Positions 48,431 through 60,467 of a stretch of DNA of 64,000 bases are shown piece by piece. Position 1 is the first letter of the stretch. Every line of letters starts with the position of its first letter. Origin of the DNA: Tetraselmis striata (taxonomy: Eukaryota > Chlorophyta > Chlorodendrophyceae > Chlorodendrales > Chlorodendraceae); NCBI GenBank assembly GCA_006384855.1, contig VCJN01000280.1:59810-123809 (forward strand), in the 5' to 3' direction. Below the pieces are notes generated by a model. That model had not been told where the DNA came from, ran no database searches, and worked only from the letters and a program-made list of their open reading frames with translations. The position numbers and the translations under genes are program-made.

Positions 48431-49354
48431 TTTTTTTTTCGCCCCCGGGACAGGACTGGCACCAGTGACCTCGCAGCGTCTCTACGACGGCCGTTTAGGC
48501 AGCAATCCAGTTACGGAAAGCCCTGGGTAGGCGACGCTCCGTTATAGTCATCAAGCAAATTGCCGAGGCATTCTGCAAGACTAATTGAAGGCCAGTGACG
48601 GAATTTCCAACACTGTTGGATCACCGTCTAAAACACTGCCATCAAAAATACCCGGCACTCACCACGAAAGGTCCGCCCTACCCGTTTGGGCGTCGGCCCA
48701 TTCGAGTAATGCGAGTTGGGGCAAGCCCCAACCCGCGGAGCAAAGCATTTCGGGAGTGCGATACATGTGCAACAAAAAAGGCAATGTGAGGGAGGGCCCG
48801 ACGCCATAGCTGGAAAAATTTCCCATTCCCAGTAAAATCAAGGGCGCCGTGAAGGGAGGGGGGGACCCCGCCCAATATAAAGGCAGTTAAGTCTTCAGGT
48901 GTTGACGCAATAACTCGACTACTAATAAAATCCCTGAACTCCGGAACTAACAACCCAAAAGTATGACGGTGATACCCCCACCGCGGGCACTCCACCATCA
49001 TATGTTCGATAGTCTCAGATTCACCTCCGCCACATGCAGGGCAGTGTTCAAGGAACCGCTCAGGCATGGCATGAATCCGGGCCAATCGGCGGGCAGTGGG
49101 AAATACTCGGGTGCGTAATTGTATCATAATGTGCAACCCGGCCACAACCCCCGCGGGGACACCCACACCGTACTGTGGCAACGGGTTTGACGCATAGGAC
49201 GCCTGGACATATATACCCAGGTGCTATTGCGTGCTAACGATGCCGACGATTCGTAACGCGCCCACACCGATGCCTTTACTAGTTTAGCGGCATCGCGCGC
49301 GGCTAGTGACCTCCACTCAAGTGGAAGGTGCGCCCACTCAGCTAGCCCTATGTT
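48431..49354 (-). mobile_element. LINE family A copy, minus strand, cut by the 5' LTR
   Basis: The 3' terminus is the T run at 48431-48439 (minus-strand A run). The open C-terminal part (49181-48678) has the Cys/His cluster CPACGGGESETIEHMMVECP. A frameshift near 49160 separates it from SLAARDAAKLVKASVWARYE. The copy stops exactly at the LTR start (49355), and the missing LINE sequence does not resume beyond the other LTR. Confidence 0.85.
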
Positions 49355-49767
49355 TGTTATACTCCATTTCCCTATAGCCATAATGTTCTGCTATACTAGC
49401 AGGTATAACTCCCCGCAAAGGTCGTACGACTACGCATCCGCGGAGTCGCTGTACATATTAGTATTGCGGGCGTAAATATTAGTAGTATAAGGCCGAGGAC
49501 TGTTCTGGAATTCTCTAGAGTTCTCTGACTCAGGCCTTACGTGGCTAACACAGCACGGGTATCCCATGACACCCGGCTAACATAGCACAGGTATGACTAT
49601 GACCTCGGCGGGTATAAATACCGCCTCGGACAAGTCTACTAGGCAGAATTCAGAGACAGAACTATAACCCAGGAACCCCTGTAACCAGAAGAGATTGGCC
49701 ATACTTTCTAAATCCTTCCGCTGCATCCTAAAGGGCCTAAAGAACAGGCTTAAGCTAGAGCCTAACA
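49355..49767 (+). repeat. 5' LTR of the Ty3 chromovirus
   Basis: 413 bp, TG...CA ends, TATAAATA at 49613-49620. It differs from the 3' LTR by four substitutions and one single-base indel by eye (about 1%), which indicates a young insertion. Confidence 0.95.
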
Positions 49768-49769
49768 TT

Positions 49770-49787
49770 TGGTTTCGGAGCTTAGAC
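49770..49787 (+). other. Candidate primer-binding site
   Basis: TGGTTTCGGAGCTTAGAC begins 3 nt after the LTR and starts with TGG, the complement of a tRNA CCA end. The priming tRNA could not be assigned. Confidence 0.55.
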
Positions 49788-49806
49788 AGCGGTAAGCGAC
49801 GTAAAG

Positions 49807-50967
49807 ATGGCTACACCAGGAGAGACACCACCTGAGGACAGCGGAAGCTTTCCGGTAGCGGCCACTGCCGGCGAAGCACAGCCGATTCCGCTCGAAGGAG
49901 GTCAAGAGGGCACGCAACCGACCCTCGCAACCATGATGAGCATGCTTCAACGACTAGCCGACCGAGTCGAGACTATGTCGACGGAACAAGCGAAGATGCA
50001 AGATGTAGCGCAAGCTACAACGGCGGCAACGGCGGAGATTCGCCGCTTGGACGAGTACGTGCGACAAGGCTTCAGTCATTTCGACGACCGAGTGAACCGG
50101 AGCCGAGTTGTAGAGCAGCAGATGCGAGACCAGCTTCGTTCTGCCCGGACCAGCGACATGCCTGGGCTCATGCCGAGCGATGTGAAACCAGCGAAGATCG
50201 AGAAGCTATCGACTACGAATATCGACGAGCTACGGAACTGGTTTCGTCATGCACGGGGTTACCTGAAATATCACAATGTAAACCCGGAGGAACCTCGTAG
50301 CGTGTACTGGGCATCTGGCTATTTTCACGGACCCGTATCCAAGTGGTGGTACGCGCAAGTGGCGAGTACGCACGACGAAATTGGCGGCGGTTTTACCGGT
50401 ATTACGCATATGGAGGCGGCACTAATCACCGAATTCTGTGGACGTACACCGGCGAAGCAAGCTCGTATCAATCTGGATCGCGCGACACAGCGGACTACAG
50501 TACAGAAGTACGCGAATTATTTCCGCGAGCAACTACTGGAGTTACCACATCGTCACGAGGAAGATAATGTACATGACTTCCAGCGCGGACTGAAACCCCA
50601 TATTCGAAAGGAAGTTGCCCTGAAAAACCCTAAGACCCTGGCAGAAGCTGTACAGGCAGCTCTGGCTGTTGAAGCTGCGGAGCGGGAGACAGATGTGCAC
50701 CGCGAGATCCGTCGCGAGCGCCTAAACATCATGGACGACGATGGCGACGACGACGAGCAGTACTACAGCAGTGCTGAGGGTGAGGCTACAGAACAAGAAG
50801 ACGACCTGTTGATGGCGCGGCGATTGACCGAGGAGGAGTTTGAGAGATTTAAGAAGGAAAGTCGCTGCTTTATCTGCAGGGCGAAAGGTCATATTGCGTC
50901 CGCGTGCCCGAGCAAGAAGAAGAAGATTTCTGAATATCGACCCAGAAAGACCCGGCCGGGAAACTAA
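49807..50967 (+). CDS. Gag of the chromovirus
   Basis: 386 aa from the first ATG after the primer site. The N-terminus contains a predicted coiled coil ([20 protein letters not shown]). The central capsid region includes [34 protein letters not shown] and [20 protein letters not shown], and is followed by [19 protein letters not shown]. This is the retrotransposon-gag pattern. Near the C-terminus a canonical zinc knuckle [14 protein letters not shown] (CX2CX4HX4C) binds RNA. The protein forms the particle and packages the RNA. The frame ends at TAA 50965-50967, directly after a slippery heptamer, so a minor share of ribosomes should continue into pol. Confidence 0.93.
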
Positions 50968-50998
50968 GACGTGAGTCGGCCGCGCGCGGCGCGCGACA
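50958..50998 (+). promoter_or_regulatory. Programmed -1 ribosomal frameshift signal between gag and pol
   Basis: GGGAAAC at 50958-50964 is in the right phase (G GGA AAC in gag codons) and is followed at once by the gag TAA. The -1 frame is open from 50934 and continues unbroken to 53042. About 10 nt downstream, a very GC-rich self-complementary stretch (GTCGGCCGCGCG ... CGCGCGAC) could form the stimulating stem. G-GGA-AAC is an established slippery site in retroviruses. Confidence 0.75.
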
Positions 50999-53900
50999 GG
51001 GTGAAGGACTGTCCCCTAAAACGGCTCGCGAGACTACAGAAGTACAGCCCTCGTATCCTCGAACGACACTGAGGCCTGATTTCCTCCACAAGGATTTCAG
51101 CGACTGGATGGTACGTCGCGAATTATTTCACGAGTACACGAAGAAATACGGACCCTGCGACCTGGACGGAGCTTGCGATAATGACGGCCTGAATTCTCAA
51201 GTTTCTGGTAGTTTTTGCTGTCCGACGCGCCCATTTCAGGAACAGGATCTCGGAGAATATCGGCGTATTTGGCTAAATGCCCCGTATGACCGAATTGAAG
51301 AATTTTTGGGCCACTACCTTCGACAGAAGTTATTGCATCCGCATCTACGAGCAATTATTGTGGTCCCAAAATGGTCGCGTAAGCCGTGGTTTCGACTACT
51401 GAGAAATTTTCGTCTGGTGGATGAGTTGCCAGCGGAGACTTCTGTGTTTACGTGTCCAACGAACGATGGCATAGAAGGTGCGAGACAAGATGTTGGCCCC
51501 ACTCGATGGGCGACACAGATCTACGCTGACGATGGCGCCGGCGTACGGTTTCTACCGCAGCACCTGAGAACCCCACCGAAGCCTGAGTGGACGCACTCGA
51601 AGGTTCTAGTAACCGATGGAAGACGAGTGCTTCTGACTGTAGAAGACAGCGGACTGATTTGGTTTCCAGAAGGCAAGCGCGGCGACACGGACGCGACGCC
51701 GGAGACAACAGCAGTACGACGATTACTCGAGCAAACTGGGTACCGGGTACAGGAGAGCAATCTACGGTACCTCGGCACTCAGCGGACGGGAGACAACCGG
51801 TGTCCCGTATACCTGTATCGCGTTCGTCGTAATACTGTACCTACGAAGACCCCTTTGAACCGTGCATTATGGACAACCTGGAAGAAATTATTGGAGGCAC
51901 GAAGTACGGGTTATCTGGAGACGGAGACAGTACGCTACCCACTACGGTACGAAAGCTTCGGCGAACAAATTGATGAATATGTCAACCGTAACGTCCGACT
52001 ACCTGGCGAAGACTCCACATCGCGTTTGTGCAACGTATCTTCACCGAGTGGTACCCGACTGCTGACTATTACTGGCGAATTGCGAGGACGACACTGTAAA
52101 ATACTGGTGGACTCTGGTGCAACCGAAAATTTTGCGAGTACCGAATGGGTGCAATTGCATCAGTGCCCTACAGTATCCGGAGGAAAACACCGTATAAAAC
52201 TGGCGAACGGCAGTATGAGTACCAGTACCAAACGGCTGAGGAGCGAAGTACTTACCGTAGGAGCTTTCGACTATAAATTGGACGCTATAGTTACAGACCT
52301 GGAGAAATTCGACATTATTCTCGGACAACCTTGGCTGGAAACAGTTAATCCTGACATCGACTGGACTGCTAAAATTATTAAACACCGGAAGACTGGACAA
52401 CACATTGCTACAGCGGAACAGTATACAGTACCTACGACGGTTTACCATCTGGACGCGGCTAAGATGGCGAAGGAGCTGAGGAAGAGTCGCGGCGAGGAAC
52501 TGTTTGCTGTTGCGGTACGCGAGGTGTTCGATGCGGTAGCTGAGCTGCGCACGGACCAGTCGACCGAGTGGACCGAGGAGCTCAAGGAGTCCCTTATGGA
52601 GTTTGCAGACATCATCGCGGAGCCTACTGACCTGCCACCGGAGCGCGAGTTCGACTTTGAGATCAACCTGGAGAGTGATGAACCCCCCAAAGAACGAACG
52701 TACCGTATGTCACCAGCGGAGTTGCAGGAGGTACGGTCACAACTGGAGGAATTGTTGGCAAAAGGGTGGATTCGTCCGTCCAAGTCAAACTACGGCGCCC
52801 CAATTTTATTTGTGCGTAAGAAAGACGGCACTCTGCGTATGTGTGTGGACTACCGTAAATTGAATGACCTTACGAAGAAAGACCGGACCCCGCTTCCTCG
52901 TATCGACGAATTATTGGACTCATTGCATGGTGCGACTATTTTCAGTACTCTGGACCTGTACAAAGGCTACCATCAAGTACGAATTAAACCGGAAGACATC
53001 CACAAAACAGCGTTCCGGACACACTATGGACTCTACGAGTACTGAGTGTTACCTTTCGGCTTGACAAACGCCCCAGCTGGATTCCAGACTATGATGAACC
53101 GTGTTTTGAGCCCATATCTCGGCAAATTCTGCGTGGTATACCTGGACGACGTGCTGATCTACAGCAAGACAGCTAAAGAGCATCTCGAGCACATCAGATT
53201 GGTGCTACGGGAGTTGCAACGACACCACTTGCATATCAAGCTGTCGAAGTGTTCGTTGGGCGGTACTAGCGTGGAGTTTTGGGGCCATATCGTCGAAGCA
53301 GGACAGATCAAGATGGACCCCCGGAAGGTGGAAGCAGTTCAACAGTGGCCCGTGCCGAAGACAGTAAAGGACGTACGAGGTTTTCTCGGCCTTGCTGGCT
53401 ATTACCGCAAGTTCATCCATAACTTCGCGGCTATTGCGGCGCCACTACATGACCTGACGAAGAATCAACCGGAGTTTGTGTGGACGCCTCGTGCTGATGC
53501 GGCGTTTCGTGCATTAAAGGACGCAATGGTACGAGCACCTGTACTGAGTATACCGGACACATCTGCGGACGCCCGTTACACATTGTATACAGATGCTTCT
53601 GGATTTGCAGTGGGAGCTGTGCTGCTGCAAGATCAAGGCTCAGGACTTCGACCTGTCGCGTACCATGCACGCAAGATGAACAAACACGAAGTTCACTACC
53701 CGGTACATGAGCAAGAGTTGTTAGCGGTTCGTGATGCACTCATCAAGTTCCGATGCTACCTTGATGGAGCGGCGGGCTTTACGGTCATCACCGACCATGA
53801 CACGCTACGGCACTTCTTTCGCCAACGCGATTTGTCGACGCGGCAAGTACGATGGCTGCAAGTGTTTGCGCCTTACCAACGACATATGGACATCGTCTAC

Positions 53901-55553
53901 AAGCGAGGAGCTGCCAATCATGCGGACGCCCTCTCTCGGCGACCCGACTTGAAGGATGCGCTACAGAAGCTAGATCTGCTGAACAACTGGTCAGAAGACG
54001 AGGCTGACTGCGAAATAAATTCAGTTTTATTTGCTATGGAGTCGCGACTACAGGCGGACAACAAATTTTACGACGAAATCAAGACCGCATATGACTCCGA
54101 CGAGTACCTGAAATCGCGGAAAGCTTTACCATCCTGGCTAGTACGTCACAGTAATGGTCTACTGTACGCCTACGGCTCACGACTTTACGTACCAAATGTG
54201 GCGGACCTGCGACAACGAGCACTGTACGAACTACATGACGCGCCTACTGCTGGACACCCAGGAGGACGACGACTACTGGCGCGTACTGTGGAACTGTACT
54301 GGTGGCCCCGTATGAAACAGACTGTCACTAACTACGTGCGACGCTGCCCTACCTGTCAACGTACTAAGGCGGCCCGGCATAAGCCATACGGCTTACTTCA
54401 GCCCCATGACGTACCGTCACGACCATTTGAGGTAATATCCCTGGATTTAATCACAGATCTTCCGGAGTGCCAGGGGTATGACTCAGTAGTGATTTTCGTA
54501 TGTCTACTGTCAAAGCGAGTAATTGTTGAGCCAACTACGAAGACAGTTACTGCTGAAGGCCTGGCGGAGATTATGCATCGCTCAGTTTTTCGTCATTTCG
54601 GTCTACCGGCTAAACTCATCTCTGACCGAGACCCCAGATTTATGTCGGAATTCTGGCAAGATATGTTCAAGACCATGGGTACTAAGCTGAACATCTCTAC
54701 AGCTTTCCATCCAGCAACCGATGGCCAGACGGAACGCACTAACCAAACTTGGGAGCAAGTGCTACGCTGCTACGTGCACCCCCTGCACGATGATTGGGTC
54801 AACCACCTCACCAACGTGGAGTTTGCGATCAACGCTGCTCAGTCGACTTCGACTACTATGTCCCCTTTCAAGGCGACTTTGGGATTCGAGCCGACTACAC
54901 CTGCTACTACTCAACTCGCAACCGAGCCGACTCGAGCTCTTCCGGAACACGTCAAGTATGTACAGGAGCTTCATCGCTTCGCGCATGATTGCGTACTGGA
55001 GGCTCAAACTCGTATGCAGACTGCAGCTAATCGTAAACGACTACCCGTACCATTCAAGACCGGCGACAGAGTTAAGCTGAAGGCGTCTCATCTGAAGTTT
55101 ATTCAGCAACCCTGTGCTAAGCTACGCGATCGCTACGTGGGCCCCTTCGTCATTACAGAGCAGATCTCGCCAGTTGCTTTCCGATTGCAACTACCTGCGG
55201 GCGTACGAGTCCACGACGTGGTGCACGCGAGTATGCTGGAAAAGTGGTATGACGACCCTGACCAACCGGCGAAGTCTGAACGAGTACCGATTGTCCACGA
55301 CGCAAACCGATTCCATGTTCAGGACATACTCGATGTTGCCTTCAACAACAATGGCACTGGACTACTGTTTCGAGTGCGATGGGCGTTCCCGTACAACGTA
55401 CCAAGCGAAGACACCTGGGAGCCCCTACGCGGAGTCAAGCACCTGGACATTTTCCGGTCGTTCTTACTGTCTAAACCATACCGACAGTTTACTGAGAGCC
55501 CAGACTTCATTCGGTTCCGGAATCGCTACCCAAGCCGAGTACCTTCCGCCTGA
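50964..55553 (+). CDS. Pol polyprotein: Dam-like, Nudix-like, protease, RT, RNase H, integrase, chromodomain
   Basis: 1,529 codons in the -1 frame relative to gag; the first Met is at 51108. Modules in order: (1) a Dam/N6-MTase-like region ([44 protein letters not shown]), about 51130-51420. (2) A Nudix-like region ([44 protein letters not shown]), about 51590-51840. (3) Protease VDSGATENF, about 52107. (4) RT with [34 protein letters not shown] and YLDDVLIYS. (5) RNase H ([23 protein letters not shown]). (6) Integrase with a HHCC zinc site, [17 protein letters not shown] and [10 protein letters not shown] (D,D,E). (7) GPY/F (YVGPFVI). (8) A chromodomain ([15 protein letters not shown]). TGA at 53043-53045 interrupts RT just before [13 protein letters not shown]; otherwise the frame is intact. 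Confidence 0.92.
53043..53045 (+). other. In-frame TGA inside RT
   Basis: Lies between THYGLYEY and [13 protein letters not shown], where active relatives have one or two ordinary residues. The frame is the same on both sides, so a point mutation (or, less likely, recoding) is the cause. Confidence 0.9.
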
Positions 55554-55627
55554 ACTTCAAAAAACAAGACCAAGACTGTAGTTTCCTGTAGTTCTGTGAT
55601 GCCTGCACAGCGAGGACGCTTGTGCTT

Positions 55628-55640
55628 AAGGGGGAGAGAG
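55628..55640 (+). other. Polypurine tract
   Basis: AAGGGGGAGAGAG directly abuts the 3' LTR start at 55641. It primes plus-strand DNA synthesis in LTR elements. Confidence 0.85.
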
Positions 55641-56052
55641 TGTTATACTCCATTTCCCTATAGCCATAATGTTCTGCTATACTAGCAGGTATAACCCCCG
55701 CAAAGGTAGTACGACTACGCATCCGCGGAGTCGCTGTACATATTAGTATTGCGGGCGTAAATATTAGTAGTATAAGGCCGAGGACTGTTCTGGAATTCTC
55801 TAGAGTTCTCTGACTCAAGCCTTACGTGGCTAACACAGCACGGGTATCCCATGACACCCGGCTAACATAGCACAGGTATGACTATGACCTCGGCGGGTAT
55901 AAATACCGCCTCGGACAAGTCTACTAGGTAGAATTCAGAGACAGAACTATAACCCAGGAACCCCTGTAACCAGAAGAGACTGGCCATACTTTCTAAATCC
56001 TTCCGCTGCATCCTAAAGGGCCTAAAGAACAGGCTTAAGCTAGAGCCTAACA
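55641..56052 (+). repeat. 3' LTR of the Ty3 chromovirus
   Basis: 412 bp, TG...CA ends, TATAAATA at 55898-55905. Near-identical to 49355-49767. Confidence 0.95.
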
Positions 56053-58676: not shown

Positions 58677-60467
58677 ATGACACGCTTTCAGCCGTTTGTC
58701 CTCGGGCTAGCCATCCTCCTGATGGCATCTGTCGTCCAGGTCCTACCCGCGCCGCTCGCACCAGTATTCGATTGCACTTACCCGATTTCCCCCCCCCCCC
58801 CCCCCCCCCCCCCCCGCCCCCCTTCCCCAGCTCCCCCCCCCCGCCCCCCTGCCTGCCCCCGTAGTACTTTGCCTTCGCCCGACCCTACCCCGTGCGTGTA
58901 GTAAGCAAACCCATCACTTACCCGATACCGGAGCCTGAAGATCCGCGCAGTGCATGGTTTTCAAAACGAGTGACGAGACGCAGCGGCTGCGGCCAACCGA
59001 CTAGCCTGGCACCCGCCCCTGACGGCTGACGCCCGCCCCGCCCCCTGGTCACAGGCACGCGTCTTGTCCTGCGGGGCGGGCTGCGCTGTCGGCGGACGTA
59101 CGGTCTGCGACACCTATGGGAACTACGTCGCACCCAACGTATGCGTCGCCATGGCGTGCTACGGGGCCACTATTACTGGTGTGCAGTACTGCCCTGATGA
59201 CCCAGTGAAGGCTCAGGGCGATACCGTCGCCGAGCCCGAGCCTGAGCCCGTGGCGCCTGTCCAGTCTGGCAAGCGCGCCGCCGTGCGTGCCAGTTCCGAT
59301 GCGACCTGCGAGAAGCTGTGCGGCTCCGCCGCCTTCAGGCCCGTTTGTGACAAGGACGGCGTCTTCCTTGCCAACAACGTGTGCGAGGCTCGCTACTGCG
59401 TCGGCGTCTCCGTCAGCGATATTAGGTATTGCCCTGATGAGGTCGAGGCAGCCATCATGGAGGAGGCCGAGGAGATGACGGAGGATGTAGTCGAGCGGGC
59501 GAATGAGGTGTTGGCTGAGGTTGTCCGGGAGGCAAAGCAGGCGATGCAGGCGGAGCCCGAGAATGCGGAGGAGATTGCCGAGAAGGCGGAGCAGATCATC
59601 GAGAATGTCGTGGAACAGGCGGACATCGTGGTGGAGATGGAGGAGGAAGCCATGCCTGCCGTGAAGAAGACGGCTGAGAGGGCCGAGGAGGCGGTGGGGG
59701 ACATGGCGGAGGCTGCTGATGAGATGGTGGAGGAGATGGCCGAGAAGGCTGAGGAGGTCGCCCCGGAGGTGGCGCAGATGATGGAGGCCGAGCGAGCTGT
59801 GTCTGATGAGACCTGCCAGGCGCTCTGCAGCAATGCCCCTACCACCGGCCGCATGTGTGACGAGGACGGCGTCTTCGTGGCCAACAGCCTGTGCGAGGCT
59901 CGCTACTGTGTGGGATTCACCGCCATCAACCTGCTTGAAATATGCCGCGATGAGGTCGAGGAGGAGCAGACAACGGAGGACATTAGCCAGGAGGCGGAGC
60001 TCGCGGTAATGGAGGATGCCGAGGACACTGAGACAATTCAGGGGGACGAGGTGGTGTTGGAGGCTGAACCCTCACGGGTGATGCCGAGCCAGGCGGAGGC
60101 GCCCGCAACGCCGGCGCCCAGCTCCGCCATCTGCTGCGGTGCCATCAGCTTTGGCGCTCCCTATTCCAAGAGTGTGCTGAACGTCTGCCAGACGTCCCTT
60201 GACTGCATGACCGGCACCCACCAGGAGGCCAAGGACCTGTGCGAGAATGCCGCCAAAGTCCGGATGTGCACGGCGGATGAGGCCGATGCGGGCCTGCAGG
60301 TTGGGCCCACGTGCAGCTTTGACGTCTCCCCTCTTTCCTGGACCTCCACGGAATGCGTCATCGACGCAACCGGCGAGGCTGGCTTTGTGACCAGCGCGGA
60401 CGGCGTGGAGGAATGCACTCCTGCGAGCGAGACACGCCCCATCCTCTGCTGCGCTGATGCTTGCTAA
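58677..60467 (+). CDS. Secreted protein with three Kazal-like modules and an acidic helical segment
   Basis: Two exons: 58677-58763 and 59055-60467, joined in phase 0, 499 aa. The first exon is a signal peptide (RFQPFVLGLAILLMASVVQV). Three Cys modules share the pattern C-x3-C-x(6-9)-C-D-x-x-G-x(6)-V/L-C-x3-x-C-x-G-x(n)-C: VLSCGAGC...TVCDTYGNYVAPNVC, CEKLCGSAAFRPVCDKDGVF, and CQALCSNAPTTGRMCDEDGV. The PVCDxDG..xxNxC core resembles Kazal/follistatin protease-inhibitor modules. Between modules 2 and 3 lie about 110 residues rich in Glu/Ala/Val (EEMTEDVVERANEVLAEVVR), predicted helical or coiled-coil. The C-terminus has a second Cys-rich domain with two CC pairs (SAICCGAISFG, RPILCCADAC). Probably extracellular or cell-wall; inhibitory activity is an inference only. 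A TGTAA lies about 165 nt past the stop. The poly-C stretch at 58790-58815 is intronic. Confidence 0.78.

Follow-up and report, generated by a model that had tools for sequence, protein, structure and literature searches.

A Ty3/Gypsy retrotransposon of the green alga Tetraselmis striata with Dam-like and Nudix-like domains ahead of its protease

Methyltransferase domains of unknown function have been described in DIRS elements (PMC3266345), a cytosine methyltransferase, DNMT3, in the Ty3/Gypsy element KnitGypsy-Dnmt3 of Klebsormidium nitens (PMC5890265), an active AlkB-type RNA demethylase acting on N6-methyladenosine (m6A) in orchid Ty3/Gypsy elements (PMC9289625) and a methyltransferase acting on adenine or on cytosine N4 in a DNA transposon (PMC12477816); the fixation of extra domains in long terminal repeat (LTR) retrotransposons is described as rare (PMC9289625). 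Here we analysed a stretch of 64,000 nucleotides of Tetraselmis striata (GenBank assembly GCA_006384855.1, contig VCJN01000280.1, positions 59,810 to 123,809 of the forward strand), hereafter the window, which contains one LTR retrotransposon of the Ty3/Gypsy type, at 49355-56052, whose Pol carries a Dam-like methyltransferase domain and a Nudix-like domain ahead of the protease. Dam in DIRS elements and a C5-methyltransferase in Ty3 elements are already known; a Ty3 element with both Dam and Nudix, of which the original prediction, made from the letters of the window, knew none, was not found described in the open PubMed Central literature searched, Repbase being outside the search. The reading that we prefer, with a probability of about one half, is that this element produces, by frameshifting, a Ty3 Pol in which a Dam domain would methylate the element's own nucleic acid and a non-hydrolytic Nudix domain would read it.

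The stretch between gag and protease had been estimated at about 380 codons and measures approximately 382, from the gag TAA (50965-50967) to the protease DSGA (52110-52121); every peptide quoted for it earlier is present in the frame. This part of the element comprises:

50964..53045, + strand: first part of the pol frame, with the Dam-like and Nudix-like domains, the protease and the start of the reverse transcriptase (RT); it closes at an in-frame stop in the RT
51066..51548, + strand: Dam-like methyltransferase domain (Pfam match 51102-51395)
51159..51173, + strand: motif-I-like DLDGA
51276..51287, + strand: motif IV, NAPY
51549..51968, + strand: Nudix-like domain (Pfam match 51603-51833, with the whole protein as query)
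51672..51743, + strand: Nudix box with altered acids (RRLLEQTGY, versus RELFEETGY in the relative P0003)
52092..52379, + strand: aspartic protease, with DSGA at 52110-52121

By homology, the first half of the pre-protease stretch is a Dam-like N6-adenine methyltransferase domain, as the original prediction had proposed. When the two halves were searched separately against Pfam, the Dam half matched PF05869 just under the cut-off (E-value 2.8e-6, 27.6 bits against 28.1), a cut-off exceeded by copies of the same element on contigs C230, C2480 and C1240 (32.1, 30.9 and 30.5 bits). Its sole match in PHROGs is a DNA methyltransferase (0.002), the NCBIfam model TIGR01712 phage_N6A_met is matched at 0.0024, far below its own cut-off, profile-profile comparison (hhalign) with phage Dam gave 97.3%, and the relative P0055 reaches an E-value of 3e-15. 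The structure model, built from 72 sequences, is mostly confident in this half (predicted local distance difference test, pLDDT, 81-96 over the larger part; an earlier model from 8 sequences had 36.5), and it matches the fold of m6A methyltransferases: the highest matches are a cap-specific adenosine methyltransferase and enzymes of the RNA dimethyladenosine methyltransferase type, and KsgA and Erm are also present; Foldseek returned nothing from the PDB at E-value ≤0.001. A sequence search of the PDB with the Dam profile gave two weak acetyltransferase matches only (E-values 0.94 and 0.96).

The motif I of four phage Dams reads LDAA, DIDAA, DLDAA and NIDGA, against DLDGA in the window, and their motif IV is NPPY or NPPF, as it is NPPF in P0055. 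In the window motif IV is NAPY; NAP is found in 23 of 26 copies and NPP in one, and most relatives read have NAPY or NAPF. The locus L054 (G000:C230:77730-79050) has NPPY instead of NAPY. The replaced proline, together with the loss of Nudix acids described below, would suit a reading in which both modules are catalytically dead and are retained within the Pol precursor to bind nucleic acid or to serve in assembly. We regard this as rather doubtful: the catalytic asparagine and the aromatic residue are mostly retained in the aligned relatives, and an N-x-P-Y motif with a different second residue occurs in KsgA and Erm, which are active m6A enzymes and are both among the fold matches.

The second half of the stretch is a Nudix-fold domain, as also predicted, an identity that rests on sequence because the confidence of the structure model is low there (pLDDT 30-66). 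It matches Pfam NUDIX (PF00293) with an E-value of 7.9e-7 and 29.6 bits, above the cut-off of 21.1; PHROGs gave MutT/NUDIX hydrolase (0.0082), portal protein (0.014) and nudix hydrolase (0.018), and NCBIfam gave TIGR02705 nudix_YtkD (0.0037, far below its cut-off). A profile of five relatives matched 46 PDB sequences at E-value ≤1, of which 44 are Nudix proteins and two are TREM2; the best is MutT (4.4e-4), and RNA pyrophosphohydrolase and Dcp2 are among the Nudix matches. The relative P0003 reaches 1.2e-10 and 42.0 bits, with an intact box, RELFEETG.

The catalytic Nudix box has the consensus GX5EX7REUXEEXGU. The window and 24 of the 26 copies read have RRLLEQTGY at this place, RRISEKTG and RRLSERTG stand there in the two older relatives, and P0003 is the only relative inspected in which the acids are intact. 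In the aligned relatives the arginine is kept in 42/43, the glutamate of RE in 2/43, and the first and second glutamates of EE in 38/44 and 1/44, respectively. Since the box is intact in P0003 and altered elsewhere in this pattern, the hydrolytic site was probably present originally and later given up. The half more likely binds than cleaves, because nearly all relatives have altered catalytic acids; the earlier view of a binding module or altered enzyme fits this loss of metal-binding acids combined with continued purifying selection.

The identities of the two folds also bear on whether DNA or RNA is the substrate. The Dam domain could act on a cap-adjacent adenine or another adenine of the element RNA and the Nudix domain bind the cap or a dinucleotide, which would steer translation or packaging or hide the genomic RNA. 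This agrees with the top structural matches of the Dam half, with the weak NCBIfam match of the Nudix half to an RNA deprotection pyrophosphohydrolase, with the presence of RNA pyrophosphohydrolase and Dcp2 among the profile matches, and with the active m6A RNA demethylase reported in an orchid Ty3/Gypsy element (PMC9289625). Nevertheless, the closest sequence relatives are phage DNA methyltransferases and the fold is common to DNA and RNA enzymes, and we consider an RNA-level pair distinctly unlikely.

The pre-protease stretch is carried by at least 93 copies in the genome (93 scored among 1388 candidates), 90 of which have no stop within the 455-residue query; a frame of 1539 residues is present in 48 of the 93, one of these having a stop inside the query stretch. 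Measured against L042, an older relative, the ratio of nonsynonymous to synonymous substitution (dN/dS) is 0.15 for Dam, 0.30 for Nudix and 0.33 for the protease; against L057, also older, it is 0.21, 0.46 and 0.20 in the same order. All these values are raised because L042 and L057 contain stops and are decaying. Pairs of younger decayed copies gave widely scattered values, some of which, based on few changes, approach or exceed 1. A count of distinct single-base variants over the window and 24 further copies gave 27 synonymous and 50 nonsynonymous for Dam (p 0.01), 32 and 36 for Nudix (p 1e-4) and 14 and 20 for the protease (p 0.02), p values that are rough because the copies are related. 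On the basis of these ratios and counts, Dam and Nudix are both under purifying selection and about as well held as the protease, which is the outcome of the comparison between copies that the original prediction had called for.

The prediction had also argued from near-identical LTRs and a preserved frame: the LTRs are indeed close, with four mismatches and one one-base gap between 413 and 412 bp, and the modules are selected, but the Pol of the window copy is stopped inside the RT, at 53043-53045; other copies have long open frames. The copy number, the selection and the phage Dam profile match together rule out, for practical purposes, a chance resemblance or the capture of a host gene fragment by a single copy. 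The score of the window Dam below the cut-off could be held in favour of such an origin, yet three profile libraries, the relatives, the fold and the selection agree, and we find it extremely improbable. The stretch is not a capture unique to this copy, which would have spoken against the earlier claim, since it is carried by at least 93 copies and by diverged relatives elsewhere.

Seven such relatives were found for the module pair in a first search, 73 by the Dam profile and 64 by the Nudix profile, nearly all in JGI or ENA records with short contigs, probably metagenomes. Both modules are covered by seven of 71 aligned relatives, which are 52-70% identical; most of the rest are fragments. 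P0008, in which a zinc-knuckle gag end is joined to Dam, and P0006 and P0007, in which Nudix is joined to a protease, are retroelements too, given these fusions. One Dam fragment comes from the chlorodendrophyte green alga Prasinocladus. No relative turned up when viral contigs and prokaryote genomes were scanned by pattern, and a search of the same genome with P0002 gave no second P0002-like family (108 of 924 candidates scored, all at 55-57%).

Pol lies in the -1 frame relative to gag, and the two frames overlap at 50934-50967. Directly 5' of the gag TAA is the heptamer G GGA AAC (50958-50964, + strand), and GGGAAAC at the end of gag is a canonical -1 slippery site. It is kept in 21 of 24 readable junctions (28 loci tried), the exceptions being L002, L043 and L052. 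L057, an older relative, has TGA rather than TAA as the stop after the heptamer. At L002 (G000:C2422:48179-52275) the frameshift site is AAAAAAC, not GGGAAAC, and the sequence upstream of the pol start differs. RNA structure 3' of the slippery site was no better than that of shuffled sequence. From the arrangement of the frames and the heptamer, Pol is very likely produced by -1 frameshifting.

Other elements of the same genome also carry Dam-like domains. A second Ty3 family, at L034 (G000:C31:46300-49300) and L036 (G000:C976:9500-14000), has one directly before the protease, with INPVY as motif and scores of 24.6 and 26.1 bits, below the cut-off; no Nudix match was obtained there at E-value ≤0.01. 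Eight rows with the same short Dam match have 1534-residue frames and would belong to the same family, of which two loci were read. At L015 and L020 the RT is followed by a Dam-like domain, a DIRS-like order, and at L035 and L037 the RT and RNase H are followed by one, the motifs in these four being NPPF and NAPF. The second open reading frame of L035 and L037, judged by eye to be a tyrosine recombinase, had no Pfam match at E-value ≤0.1 (the Pfam run covered L035 and L037), so the DIRS-like label of all four is based on domain order. Free-standing Dam-like reading frames of 193 residues with NPPF occur at L022, L024 and L026 (L022, Pfam Dam 2.3e-12).

In a midpoint-rooted tree of 19 rows and 178 columns with four phages, in which P0055 counts as Ty3 by similarity only, the retroelement Dams separate from the four phage Dams and a free-standing one (support 99/99), the latter placing with the phages on a long branch, and the Ty3 Dams group together (95/96). 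The motif GPTxW is common to the Dams of the DIRS-like-order elements and of the window element. This grouping suggests that the Dam module moved between kinds of retrotransposon, and that Nudix was either acquired later by one Ty3 lineage or lost from the other.

If the element methylates its own nucleic acid, as we prefer, the Dam domain would bind S-adenosylmethionine and methylate adenines of DNA rather than RNA, the likeliest substrate being new complementary DNA (cDNA), in the particle or at integration, which would thereby be marked or protected. The Nudix domain, its pyrophosphohydrolysis lost, may be a nucleic-acid or nucleotide reader that positions the methyltransferase, like the Nudix-like end of MUTYH, which reads DNA. 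Because they would be made by frameshifting within Pol, both modules would enter particles in small, enzyme-like amounts. A further proposal, put forward tentatively as it seems to us unlikely, is that a Ty3 lineage took the Dam circulating in DIRS-like elements and added a Nudix domain that lost hydrolysis, giving a writer and reader of adenine methylation that mark the cDNA; new copies would then be taken for active host DNA or slip past a host check. In green algae, active genes are reported to carry N6-methyladenine, which makes this a concrete hypothesis for element marking. The question of self-marking dates from the DIRS methyltransferases of unknown function; a lineage in which selection maintains an adenine methyltransferase and a Nudix domain would offer a direct way into the reasons for which mobile elements mark their DNA or RNA, and the question can be tested because this genome has young copies and both architectures, one with Nudix and one lacking it.

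The remaining features of the element are:

49355..49767, + strand: 5' LTR, 413 bp, with TG...CA ends
49768..49785, + strand: candidate primer-binding-site region, TTTGGTTTCGGAGC..., from its position alone
49807..50967, + strand: gag, with capsid and CCHC zinc knuckle (Ty3_capsid E-value 2e-8, Retrotrans_gag 1e-5)
52812..53291, + strand: RT, broken by the in-frame stop 53043-53045
53571..53876, + strand: RNase H
54204..54713, + strand: integrase, with H2C2 zinc finger and rve core (rve 28.3 bits, below the cut-off of 32.6)
55311..55442, + strand: chromodomain-like integrase end, below the Pfam cut-off
55628..55640, + strand: polypurine tract, AAGGGGGAGAGAG
55641..56052, + strand: 3' LTR, 412 bp

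The LTRs, the gag and the order protease-RT-RNase H-integrase are those of Ty3/Gypsy elements, the whole Pol reading Dam-like, Nudix-like, protease, RT, RNase H, integrase and a weak chromodomain; the gag zinc knuckle scores 18.2 bits, below the cut-off of 20.8. The element is probably a chromovirus, the label given to it earlier; its chromodomain stays below the Pfam cut-off (Chromo, E-value 0.0011, 19.3 bits against 25.1), and the best four PDB matches of the integrase end, at E-values of 0.002-0.024, are chromodomain proteins. No target-site duplication is visible at the window copy (flanks ATGTT and TCAAG), which may be rearranged.

Adjoining the 5' LTR, on the minus strand at 48678-49223, is a remnant resembling the zinc-binding end of non-LTR elements (zf-RVT E-value 0.0052, below the cut-off). 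On the plus strand, 58974-60467 holds an open frame of 497 residues in which a stretch containing cysteines is repeated (70-base repeat, 84%); it has no clear Pfam family.

Compared with the systems described, the element resembles phage N-6-adenine methyltransferases (PF05869, TIGR01712) in the order of the motifs, besides the hhalign value of 97.3%, and differs in having NAPY for NPPY and in lying within a retroelement polyprotein. The C-terminal domain of MUTYH has a Nudix fold without hydrolysis beside an adenine-acting DNA enzyme and is among the fold matches, weakly; MUTYH is a glycosylase and a cellular repair protein. DIRS1-like elements share a methyltransferase domain in a retrotransposon Pol, and the window Dam groups with the Dams of DIRS-like-order elements, but they are described as RT-RNase H-methyltransferase with a tyrosine recombinase (PMC3266345), whereas the window element is Dam-Nudix-protease-RT-RNase H-integrase between LTRs, has an rve integrase match and places Dam before the protease. 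In KnitGypsy-Dnmt3, likewise a Ty3/Gypsy element, Pol includes an extra DNA methyltransferase that purifying selection maintains, but this enzyme is a cytosine C5-methyltransferase unrelated to Dam, and the text does not mention Nudix (PMC5890265). The orchid element, also Ty3/Gypsy, has gained an enzyme that acts on adenine methylation by erasing the mark and is described as encoded in a separate open reading frame (PMC9289625).
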